64,000 nucleotides of DNA from the NCBI RefSeq assembly GCF_000737325.1, contig NZ_CP011125.1:9672001-9736000 (forward strand), read 5' to 3'. Source of the stretch: Sandaracinus amylolyticus. Lineage in GTDB: Bacteria > Myxococcota_A > Polyangia > Polyangiales > Sandaracinaceae. Both the position numbers and the translations under genes were made by a program. Positions within the stretch are counted from its first letter, which is position 1; each line of letters starts with the position of its first letter. Shown in pieces: positions 4,660 to 9,001 of this stretch. The notes below the pieces were generated by a model. It was not told where the DNA came from, did no database searches, and saw only the letters and a program-made list of their open reading frames with translations.

Positions 4660-6327
4660 ATGGGTACGGGGTCGTTCACGCGCGTCGCGGTCGTGCTCGC
4701 CGCGGTCGGCGCGCTCGGATGTGCGAGCGGTCCACGTTCGTTCGCGACGACGACGCCGATCGTCTGGCGCGACGACGATCGACATCCATTCGGTCCACGC
4801 CCGGACGCGCGCTTCGCGCCGGAGATCTGGGACGCGGCCGACAACCTGATCGTGCGGCCGGCGGCGCGCGCGCTCGCGTTCGACACCAGCGGCGAGTCGG
4901 TGAACGTGAACGCCGTCGACGAGGTGCCCGACTCGAGCTTCTTCGAGAACCGCATCGGCATGCGCGCGATCAGCCCCGAGGCGCTCGCGGCGGGCGCGTG
5001 CGGCGAGGGGTTCGAGGAGCCGGTGCTGCCGTGGCGCGTCGTGTCGGGCAAGCGCGACGGCGCGACGAGCGGCTTCGTGATCGAAGACGCGAGCGGGCGG
5101 CGCTTCGTGCTGAAGGCCGATCGCGAGACGCAGCCCGAGCAGACGACCGCGGCGGACGCGATCGTCGCCGCGCTCTATCACGCCGCCGGCTATCACGTGC
5201 CGTGCAACCGCGTCGTGTACTTCGAGCGCGCGTCGGTCTCGCTCGATCCGCGCGCGCGCCTCGACGGCGCCGATCGCGCGATGACAGAGGAGGATCTCGC
5301 GGAGATCCTCGCCGTGTTCCAGGAGGGCGAGCACGGCCTGCGCGCGACCGCGAGCCTGATGTTCGACTCGCCGGCGCTCGGCCCGTGGGACTACCGTGGC
5401 ACGTGGGACGTCGACCTCAACGACGTCGTGCCGCACGAGGATCGTCGCGAGCTGCGCGGGATGTTCGTGATCAACGCGTGGCTCGATCACTGGGACGCGC
5501 GCCAGCACAACACGCTCGCGACGTGGGAGGAGACGGGCGACGGGCGCGGCTGGGTGCTGCACCGGCTCGTCGACTTCGGCGACACGCTCGGGTACCTGCA
5601 GGGCCCTCATCGACAGCAGGTGCGCTACGGGCACTCGCAGTGGATCGACGGGCAGCACGTCGCCGAGGATCTCCTCACGCTCGGGCTCGTACGACGGCCC
5701 TGGGACGACGCGGAGCGCGGGCCCACCTGGCCGATCCTCGGTTACTACGACGTCGAGCGGTTCGATCCCGACGCGTGGCGCCCGAACTACTGGAACGGCG
5801 CGTTCGAGCGTCGCACCGAGCGCGACTGCGCGTGGATGGCGCGGATCGTCTCGCGCTTCGACGAGGCGCACCTGCGCGCGGCGATCGCGCTCGGTCGGTT
5901 CTCCGATCCGCGCGTCGAGGAGCGCTTGCTCGAGGTGATGCTCGGACGTCGCGAGCGCGTGCTCGAGCGATGGCTCACGCGCGTGTCGGCGCTCGCGTCG
6001 CCGGAGGTGCACGAGGGCGCGCTGTGCCTCGAAGATCACGCGGTGTCGTCGGGGCTGCGCGGCGTGCGCGCGCGAGCGCATGCGGCGGCGTGGATCGACG
6101 AGGAGCAGCGCGTGATCGGCGCGCTGCCGATCCGGATGGACGGCGCGCGCGTGTGCGTCGCGATGCCGGAGCACGCGCGGAGCTACGCGATCGTGCGCGT
6201 GCGCTCGGGGACGATCGGTCGCGAGCAGACGCACCCGATCGACGTGCACCTCGCGCAGCGCGGAGAGACGTGGCGCGTGGTGGGGCTCGAGCGGCGCACG
6301 GACGGTGCGAGCGAGGTGACGCGATGA
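4660..6327 (+). CDS. Secreted lipoprotein with protein-kinase-like motifs
   Basis: A 555-aa protein with a clear lipobox (GALGC, Cys21). Its middle carries motifs in the order and spacing of a kinase-like fold. FVLKAD with Lys152 matches the ATP-binding lysine strand. DARQHN (Asp279 to Asn284) matches the Dx4N catalytic loop. VDFGDTLG (Asp305) matches the DFG metal-binding motif. No standard Gly-rich loop was recognised. HipA-, FAM20- and CotH-type kinases vary in a comparable way, but membership in any of these families is inference. It ends in an ATGA overlap with the outer-membrane barrel gene, so the two are co-translated and probably work together at the outer membrane. The start has GGAG immediately upstream. 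Confidence 0.7.
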   Translation: MGTGSFTRVAVVLAAVGALGCASGPRSFATTTPIVWRDDDRHPFGPRPDARFAPEIWDAADNLIVRPAARALAFDTSGESVNVNAVDEVPDSSFFENRIGMRAISPEALAAGACGEGFEEPVLPWRVVSGKRDGATSGFVIEDASGRRFVLKADRETQPEQTTAADAIVAALYHAAGYHVPCNRVVYFERASVSLDPRARLDGADRAMTEEDLAEILAVFQEGEHGLRATASLMFDSPALGPWDYRGTWDVDLNDVVPHEDRRELRGMFVINAWLDHWDARQHNTLATWEETGDGRGWVLHRLVDFGDTLGYLQGPHRQQVRYGHSQWIDGQHVAEDLLTLGLVRRPWDDAERGPTWPILGYYDVERFDPDAWRPNYWNGAFERRTERDCAWMARIVSRFDEAHLRAAIALGRFSDPRVEERLLEVMLGRRERVLERWLTRVSALASPEVHEGALCLEDHAVSSGLRGVRARAHAAAWIDEEQRVIGALPIRMDGARVCVAMPEHARSYAIVRVRSGTIGREQTHPIDVHLAQRGETWRVVGLERRTDGASEVTR

Positions 6328-7685
6328 CGTGGCGCGCGCTCTTCTTCGCGATCGTCACGGTGCTCGCGGTCGCGTCCTCGGCGCACGCGCAAGAGGCTCC
6401 GGACGCGCCGATCACCGCGCATCGCGCGCGCCCCGACTACGACGGTCGCGCCGAGCCGGGCCCCGACGCGGGCGAGGTGCTGCTCTGGGTCCCGCGCGTG
6501 GTCTTCTTCCCGGTCACGCTCGTGCTCGACTACGGCATCCGCCGTCCGATCGGGCTCGTCCTCGAGACCGCGGAGCGGGAGCGCTGGCCCACGCTGCTGC
6601 TCGACGCGCTCACCTGGAACGAGCGTCGCTCCGGCATCGTGCCGACGTTCTTCGTCGCGTACGGCCTCCAGCCCTCGGGCGGTCTCTTGTTCTTCTCGAA
6701 CGACGACGTCGCGCCCGGGCACTCGCTCGGCGCCTCGTTCAACTTCGGCGGCGTCGACTACCTGCAGGGCAGCGCGTCGTACGCGATCGCGACGGGCTCG
6801 GGGTTCCGCGTCGAGCTGCGCGGCGAAGGCGGACGTCGCCCCGACCGCGTGTTCTCGGGGCTCGGCTGGGACGCGCGCGCGGTGCAGTACCGCTTCCGCG
6901 AGGCGTGGTACGAGGCGCAGCTCGGCGTGCGCGCCGATCGCTTCTGGCGCGAGAGCCGCATCGAGGTGATCACCGGCGTCGACGGACACGAATTCGATCC
7001 GCGCGGTTACGCGGCGCTGTCCAACAACTCTCCGTCGATGGCGGAGGGCATCGCGCAGGGCGAGATCCAAGCGCCGCCCGGGCTCGATCGCCCGTACGCA
7101 GTGTCGCGATCGCGCGCGTCGTTCGCGCTCGACACCCGCGAGCCCGAGCCCGCGCCGGGCCACGGCGTGCGCGTGGAAGCGCACGGCGAGCTCGTGTTCG
7201 ATCTCGACGATCCGATGCGCCGCCGGTGGGCGCGCTGGGGCGGCGGCGTCGGCACGTTCCTCGACCTCGGCGCGCATCGCGTGCTCGGCCTCTGGGGCAT
7301 CGCGCGCTTCGCGGACCCGCTGGGCGACGAGGAGATCCCGTTCACCGATCTGATCGCGCTCGGTGAAGAGGAGCTCTTGATGCAGGGCTTCCTGCGCGGT
7401 CAGCTCCGCGGACGCAGCGCGGTCGCGACGACGCTCGAGTATCGCTATCCGATCTGGACGCGGCTCGACGGACGGCTCCACGTGTCGGTGGGCAATGCGT
7501 TCGGGGCGCACCTCGAGGACTTCGCGCTCGAGCGGCTGCGTCTCTCGTTCGGCATGGGCATCGCGACCGCGGGCGAGCCCGACGGCGCGGTCGAGATCGC
7601 CGTCGCGGCGGGCACTGCGCCGTTCGTCGACGGCGCGGGCATCGACTCGGTGCAGCTCGTCTTCGGCAGTCGTCAGGGGTTCTGA
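6324..7685 (+). CDS. Outer-membrane beta-barrel, Omp85/D15-like
   Basis: A 453-aa protein with a cleavable signal peptide (hydrophobic core then AHAQ at about 21-24). The remainder alternates hydrophobic and polar residues as in a 16-strand barrel. The C-terminal third resembles the bacterial surface antigen (D15) domain: LMQGFLRGQLRGRSAVATTL, then EYRYPIW and a glycine-rich ending GSRQGF with terminal Phe, the classic BAM recognition residue. No POTRA domains are present; the N-terminal 100 residues are instead a short periplasmic segment. It overlaps the kinase-like lipoprotein stop by ATGA. Role could be surface export or anchoring of that partner (inference). Confidence 0.7.
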   Translation: MTWRALFFAIVTVLAVASSAHAQEAPDAPITAHRARPDYDGRAEPGPDAGEVLLWVPRVVFFPVTLVLDYGIRRPIGLVLETAERERWPTLLLDALTWNERRSGIVPTFFVAYGLQPSGGLLFFSNDDVAPGHSLGASFNFGGVDYLQGSASYAIATGSGFRVELRGEGGRRPDRVFSGLGWDARAVQYRFREAWYEAQLGVRADRFWRESRIEVITGVDGHEFDPRGYAALSNNSPSMAEGIAQGEIQAPPGLDRPYAVSRSRASFALDTREPEPAPGHGVRVEAHGELVFDLDDPMRRRWARWGGGVGTFLDLGAHRVLGLWGIARFADPLGDEEIPFTDLIALGEEELLMQGFLRGQLRGRSAVATTLEYRYPIWTRLDGRLHVSVGNAFGAHLEDFALERLRLSFGMGIATAGEPDGAVEIAVAAGTAPFVDGAGIDSVQLVFGSRQGF

Positions 7686-7768: not shown

Positions 7769-9001
7769 ATGACTCGCATTCCGGTCGGTTCCTCCTTCCT
7801 CGTGCTGCTCGTGCTCGCGGGCTGCGCCAACGACATGAACGGCATCCTCGCGTCACCGACGACCGGGGATCTGCTCGATCCGCCGGCGCAGCGCGTCGAC
7901 GTGTTCGCGGAGATCCGCGCGCAGTGCGGCGAGTGGGCGGAGCCGGGCGGCGACGTGAAGCGCTGGGCGTACGTGCAGTCGGTCTCGCACGACTCGGCGC
8001 GCGTGGTGTGGACGACCAGCGCCGAGCACGCGGAGCTGCTCGAGCTGTGGCAGCAGGAGGGCGACGAGCCGACCGTCGCGGAGCCCGCGCTCGACGAGAC
8101 GCGCTACCTGCGCGACGCGCGCCAGATGAGCGTGCCGCTGCTCGGCCTCGAGCCCGATCGCATCTACTGCTATCGCCTGCGCACGCGCGACGGCGACGTG
8201 GTGTACGGACCGACCGGGTTCCGCACCGCGCCGCGCACCGGTGAGGGCACCGCGCGCATCGTGGTGTTCGGCGACTCGGGCGGCGCGAACGCCGATCAGG
8301 TCGCGGTCGGCGAGCAGCTCGGCACCGTCGCGATGGACGCGGTGCTGCACACCGGCGATCTCGCGTACGAAGACGGCACGCTCGGGCAGCTCGAGGCGAA
8401 GCACTTCGCGATGTACGGGCAGCTCATGGCCTCGGTCCCGTTCTTCCCGTCGATCGGCGATCACGATCACGCGACGGGCTCGGCCGGGCCGTACCTCGAG
8501 GCGTTCGCGCTGCCGGATCGCGCGAGCGGCAGTGAGCGCTTCTACTCGTTCGACTGGGGCCCGGTGCACGTCGTCGTGCTCGACTCGAACGTCGATCTGC
8601 GCCCGCAGCGCACGTTCCTGCAGCGCGACCTCGCCGAGCACGCGGGCTCGCCGTGGACGATCGCGGTGATCTCGACGCCGCTCTACTCGAGCGGCTTCCA
8701 CGGCGGTGATCGCAGCCTGCGCGACGCGTTCCAGCGGCTCTTCATCGACGGCGGTGTCGACCTCGTCGTGAGCGGCGACGATCACGACTACGAGCGCACC
8801 AACCCGATCGAGGGCGTGACCTACGTCGTGACCGGCGGCGGAGGACGCAGCGTGCGCAGCGTGGGCAAGTCGTGGTTCACCGCGTTCTCGACGACCGCGT
8901 TCCACTTCGTGTCGATCGAGGCCGATCGCGAGCGGCTGCGCCTCCACGCGATCGACGGCACGGGTCGCGAGTTCGACGGAGTCGAGCTCACGAAGCGCTG
9001 A
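7769..9001 (+). CDS. Purple acid phosphatase-like lipoprotein with altered metal ligands
   Basis: A 410-aa lipoprotein (VLAGC, Cys19). Residues about 60-155 look like the fibronectin-III-like N-domain of purple acid phosphatases, followed by a metallophosphoesterase domain to about 390. Motif 1 GDSG (Asp169) and motif 2 GDLAY (Asp197, Tyr200) are intact. The expected GNHE/D is GDHD (Asn to Asp231). The VxxH strand reads VIST (His to Thr303). The GHxH motif reads GDDH (first His to Asp337, His339 kept). Three ligands of the dinuclear centre are therefore changed, so metal choice or activity may differ. Its last codons overlap the convergent GTPase gene by 14 bases. Confidence 0.8.
   Translation: MTRIPVGSSFLVLLVLAGCANDMNGILASPTTGDLLDPPAQRVDVFAEIRAQCGEWAEPGGDVKRWAYVQSVSHDSARVVWTTSAEHAELLELWQQEGDEPTVAEPALDETRYLRDARQMSVPLLGLEPDRIYCYRLRTRDGDVVYGPTGFRTAPRTGEGTARIVVFGDSGGANADQVAVGEQLGTVAMDAVLHTGDLAYEDGTLGQLEAKHFAMYGQLMASVPFFPSIGDHDHATGSAGPYLEAFALPDRASGSERFYSFDWGPVHVVVLDSNVDLRPQRTFLQRDLAEHAGSPWTIAVISTPLYSSGFHGGDRSLRDAFQRLFIDGGVDLVVSGDDHDYERTNPIEGVTYVVTGGGGRSVRSVGKSWFTAFSTTAFHFVSIEADRERLRLHAIDGTGREFDGVELTKR

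Follow-up and report, generated by a model that had tools for sequence, protein, structure and literature searches.

Kinases that act outside the cytoplasm are established in animals, where Fam20C and the other Fam20 enzymes of the secretory pathway have a kinase-like fold and where a pseudokinase relative, Fam20A, also exists (PMC7948968). In bacteria the kinase folds that turn out to be most relevant here are those of CtkA, HipT and HipA, of which HipA is cytoplasmic and paired with HipB. Phosphorylation in the bacterial periplasm has a described representative in LpxT, of the PAP2 family, but it uses C55-PP and not ATP, and its authors state outright that ATP is not available there (PMC2229476). 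In the outer membrane, Omp85 superfamily members translocate proteins, those such as BamA, TamA and TpsB carrying N-terminal POTRA domains, though noNterm-Omp85 proteins, whose barrel lacks them, have been described (PMC4104836). Lastly, nucleotide transporters of the NTT family import ATP in intracellular bacteria, whereas those of free-living bacteria, which include HEAT-fused forms and forms with cNBD companions, are uncharacterised and were left without an assigned function in a 2017 survey (PMC5381601). How does a gene pair from Sandaracinus amylolyticus, in a 64,000-nucleotide stretch (the window) of contig NZ_CP011125.1, compare with these?

The pair consists of K, a putative lipoprotein, and B, a putative outer-membrane barrel (Table 1). 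A first-pass annotation, made from sequence alone, had proposed that K has a lysine, a D-x4-N motif and a DFG-type aspartate in the order and spacing of a kinase core, that its lipobox sends it outside the inner membrane where ATP is scarce, and that the next gene, overlapping it as ATGA, encodes a barrel with a D15-like domain but no POTRA. That observation is confirmed: both reading frames are present, the ATG of B overlaps the TGA of K, and neither of the two results set beforehand as fatal to it, a predicted structure without a kinase lobe and motifs not conserved among homologues, was obtained. In an alignment of 76 homologues, down to about 30% identity, K152, D279 and N284 are invariant, and D305 and the lipobox cysteine C21 are each at least 90% conserved. 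The ATGA coupling, however, does not generalise, as relatives have gaps of up to about 500 bp or the reverse gene order.

Table 1. Coordinates of the features of the K-B locus and its downstream neighbours, in positions of the window
Position	Strand	Feature	Residues	Remarks
4660-6327	+	K, putative secreted lipoprotein with predicted protein-kinase-like fold	555 aa	
4660-4722	+	signal peptide and lipobox (A-L-G-C)	lipid-bearing Cys21 (codon 4720-4722)	Ala at +2
5008-5985	+	predicted kinase-like domain	about 117-442	range aligned to kinases
5113-5115	+	Lys152	152	end of strand beta3; predicted ATP-phosphate contact
5494-5511	+	Asp279-x4-Asn284	279-284	predicted catalytic loop
5572-5574	+	Asp305	305	DFG-type, predicted metal-binding
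5986-6294	+	predicted C-terminal beta-sandwich domain (Ig/CopC-like)	about 443-545	
6324-7685	+	B, predicted outer-membrane 16-strand Omp85-type barrel without POTRA	453 aa	signal peptide about residues 1-23
6468-6578	+	conserved N-terminal helix of B, in place of POTRA domains	49-85	candidate docking element; conserved W55, P57, R58, P63, E69, R73, P75, E84
7769-9001	+	next gene, secreted calcineurin/purple-acid-phosphatase-like lipoprotein		PF00149 8.5e-11, PF16656 6.2e-5; membership in the system uncertain
8988-10088		genes resembling a small Ras-like GTPase and a roadblock-type partner		identified by eye only

The AlphaFold model of K, made with that alignment, has a pLDDT of 93.8 and a pTM of 0.93, and in it the helix 161-176 follows the strand that K152 ends, D279-N284 lie between a helix and a strand, and D305 follows a strand pair, all as in a kinase core. 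When the model was compared with the PDB, the best 26 entries by Z (15.0 to 10.1), at the top of the VIA list, were all kinase-fold proteins. Among the matches, Helicobacter pylori CtkA led (Z 15.0 over 238 residues, 3.8 A), followed by Fam20 (Z 12-13, best 13.3), PI4KII-alpha (13.1), HipT-type kinases (11-12) and HipA (9-11), while the four Foldseek hits with E under 0.001 were all Golgi casein kinase. The kinship to known kinases nevertheless rests on predicted fold, for Pfam, NCBIfam and PDB sequence searches with K alone or as a profile gave nothing significant. The best Pfam HipA match was HipA_2 at E 0.18 in one of 29 members, and direct profile comparison (hhalign) with E. coli HipA, whose sequence has the same D-x4-N then Asp order, was not significant, so that K is not called a HipA. 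For Fam20, the similar fold was accompanied by no PDB sequence match and no Fam20 Pfam hit. On present evidence K is a new family of the protein-kinase-like superfamily. Two conserved cysteine pairs, C114/C182 and C456/C499, would fit disulfides outside the cytoplasm, though that pairing is inferred.

B, too, has no significant Pfam or PDB sequence match on its own, but eight of 20 homologues hit the Pfam Omp85 model PF01103 (best 9e-8), and its predicted structure (pLDDT 88.8) shows a signal peptide, a linker, one helix and 16 strands, matching BamA and TamA at Z 20-22. No POTRA was seen in the model, nor was there a POTRA Pfam hit. Judged by itself, and not against the published noNterm-Omp85 set, B resembles those proteins in being an Omp85 barrel without POTRA, but about 75 residues, including the conserved 37-residue helix, precede its barrel, and it has a dedicated kinase-fold lipoprotein partner, of which we found no mention in that account as far as it was consulted. 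The N-terminal region holds many of the near-invariant residues of B and is for that reason a candidate contact site for K. Does B translocate K to the cell surface in a two-partner-like way, with the kinase then acting on outside targets and the link to NTT genes described below being secondary? Such a role is in keeping with what Omp85 superfamily members do, but B lacks the POTRA domains used for substrate recognition in TpsB and BamA, and K, with its lipobox and predicted kinase fold, gave no TPS domain hit. We regard this reading as unlikely.

The pairing extends well beyond the window. The genome has four K and four B genes, all adjacent, two in each order, and in 57 genomes searched 34 of 41 K genes have B close by on the same strand, 12 as K-B and 22 as B-K. 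A first scan of named genomes' contigs with K alone found no relatives, but an alignment query found 237, and of the 80 of these loci that were fetched (L numbers below denote fetched loci), from Myxococcota, Acidobacteriota, Latescibacterota and Fodinibius, 61 have B, several of the rest sitting at contig ends; in Sorangium B is on the opposite strand. In the phylum of the window K is in 42 of 237 good genomes, and it is absent from the plasmid collection searched. Across 74 pairs the K and B distance matrices agree (Mantel r 0.85, the largest of 2000 shuffles giving 0.25), though shared ancestry contributes to this. A natural fusion was considered, as locus L088 (670-3603) reads B and K in one frame, but the last barrel strand and the stop of B are missing in what is a MAG contig, and a deletion or an assembly error is more probable.

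The first-pass annotation suggested a two-part surface system, in which the barrel could export or display the kinase-like protein or be its substrate, and this is only partly supported, as the kinase core and the pairing are borne out well beyond what could then be seen but the neighbourhoods point to more than two parts, and the two mechanisms remain proposals. NTT nucleotide exchangers and PAP2 phosphatases recur in these neighbourhoods, and this offers an answer to the puzzle of ATP scarcity which that annotation had raised. Neighbours of other K-B pairs include members of the NTT/TLC ATP/ADP translocase family, some of them HEAT-fused: PF03219, with a cut-off of 21 bits, is exceeded by the neighbours at L137 (28.9), L141 (51.8) and L132 (55.1), while that at L139 is below it (14.4). 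In the 18 relatives with K, 18 of 62 NTT genes lie within 8 kb of a K, against 0.27 expected from genome size, a ratio above 60, though the window genome and its near sister G002, and a few duplicated loci, are not independent in the counts, which somewhat overstate independence. Among the 80 named loci 34 have an NTT. In Fodinibius (L132) the order is NTT, B, K on one strand, in Latescibacterota (L128) K is followed by two NTTs, and in a Polyangia MAG (L059, 3247-11371) two complete K-B pairs flank one NTT gene in 8 kb. Could the linkage be merely incidental, with K, B and NTT being co-inherited envelope genes without functional contact? Many loci do lack one or another of the genes, and NTT copies lie away from K too, but the occurrence of both gene orders, the spread over several phyla, the placement of NTT up- or downstream and on either strand, and the excess over expectation make this very unlikely. 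The same enrichment is not explained by the display reading above.

Gene clustering of the flanks shows K, B and NTT as the three dominant families, after which come a family that looks by eye like Ser/Thr kinases, and then PAP2 phosphatases and cNMP-binding proteins. PAP2 genes are near K in 10 of 75 cases against 0.35 expected. At L098 (5719-7977) PAP2 and the Omp85 barrel are read in one open frame, but a signal-peptide-like stretch lies between them and so fusion is unproven. The window's own pair has no NTT in its neighbourhood, the nearest on the chromosome being about 190 kb away, and it sits instead directly beside the phosphatase-like lipoprotein gene of Table 1, which is also beside the pair in the sister genome G002 (L140).

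A clade of K provides a natural control. Of 13 members (L142 and L165-L176) none keeps K131, K152, R281, N284 or D305, and only 2-3 keep G134, G138 or D279, while D252, D255, R262, R263, R266, H301, W392 and others stay invariant. These predicted pseudokinases keep B (11 of 13) but have no NTT within 8 kb (0 of 13). With at least 4 kb of flank on both sides, intact K have an NTT in 32 of 50 cases and degenerate K in 0 of 9 (Fisher p 4e-4), although 49 of 94 intact K loci show none in the sequence available. Eight intact loci retrieved for comparison (L177-L184) all had an NTT, but four duplicate named loci, so that the counts are slightly inflated. Treating the contrast as many independent losses was rejected, as the tree makes the degenerate set one clade, and a test of independent pairs had one pair and no power; it is a single event, suggestive and not decisive. 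It fits the idea that NTT serves the ATP site and that the K-B link has a part which does not need catalysis. Phosphorylating B cannot then be the only reason for the pairing, and that pairing holds even for degenerate K, with congruent divergence, is what would be expected if the job of B is to handle K. The D252-D255-H259-R262-R263-R266 set that persists in the degenerate members points to a second functional or structural site, and kinase-fold proteins with other chemistry exist, SelO and SidJ among them, so that K may use the fold for AMPylation, glutamylation or as a regulator, with ATP supply mattering all the same. As the order and conservation of the K/D/N/D residues match phosphotransferring kinases, this is considered unlikely.

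The reading we favour, though with a probability of only about one half, is that K and B are an envelope module in which K would be a lipid-anchored kinase acting outside the cytoplasm, B its outer-membrane partner, and ATP would reach K by exchange across the inner membrane through NTT-family carriers often encoded in the same cluster, with a PAP2 or similar extracytoplasmic phosphatase perhaps reversing or balancing the phosphorylation. What the analysis itself establishes are the signal and lipobox, the predicted fold with its conserved ATP-site and catalytic residues, the conserved adjacency and co-divergence of K and B, and the genomic association with NTT; ATP-dependent phosphotransfer, the topology of K, its physical complex with B (perhaps through the N-terminal helix of B), the ATP-out/ADP-in direction and use of that ATP by K, and the role of the phosphatase are inferred, the last from proximity, and the substrate would most likely be an envelope lipid, glycan or protein. 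No biochemical evidence stands behind the model, sequence does not reveal the substrate or direction of an NTT, and for the window's own pair supply would have to be in trans. A converse reading is nucleotide capture, with K an ATP-binding lipoprotein, B an outer-membrane entry channel and NTT an inner-membrane importer, the cluster scavenging ATP, and phosphate through the phosphatases, from lysed prey or the environment. The import of ATP by NTT proteins of intracellular bacteria (PMC5381601) and the recurring phosphatase genes are in its favour, and it too predicts that loss of the ATP site goes with absence of NTT. However, mere binding does not need the catalytic D279 that is invariant in intact K, and Omp85 barrels are assembly and translocation proteins and not known nutrient channels, so this also is unlikely.

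Each part belongs to a known superfamily, but no described system that combines them was found: literature searches, limited to an open-access library where absence is not proof of novelty, found no described kinase-Omp85 pair and no NTT-fed periplasmic phosphorylation. In concept the Fam20 kinases are closest, though K is a bacterial lipoprotein paired with an outer-membrane barrel. In contrast to LpxT, K looks ATP-dependent. More tentatively still, and rather less likely than not, diderm bacteria of several phyla may run ATP-dependent phosphorylation in the periplasm or outer membrane, using a lipid-anchored kinase fed by dedicated ATP/ADP exchangers and coupled to a POTRA-less Omp85 barrel, with a sister pseudokinase branch that lacks the ATP supply. 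A secreted kinase family genetically tied to nucleotide exchangers would overturn, for these bacteria, the assumption that the periplasm lacks ATP, would give NTT proteins of free-living bacteria a function, and would add a kinase-linked branch to the Omp85 superfamily. An acidobacterial locus (L130, 2458-5019) has two tandem B genes before K, both without the N-terminal DYDGR/helix region.
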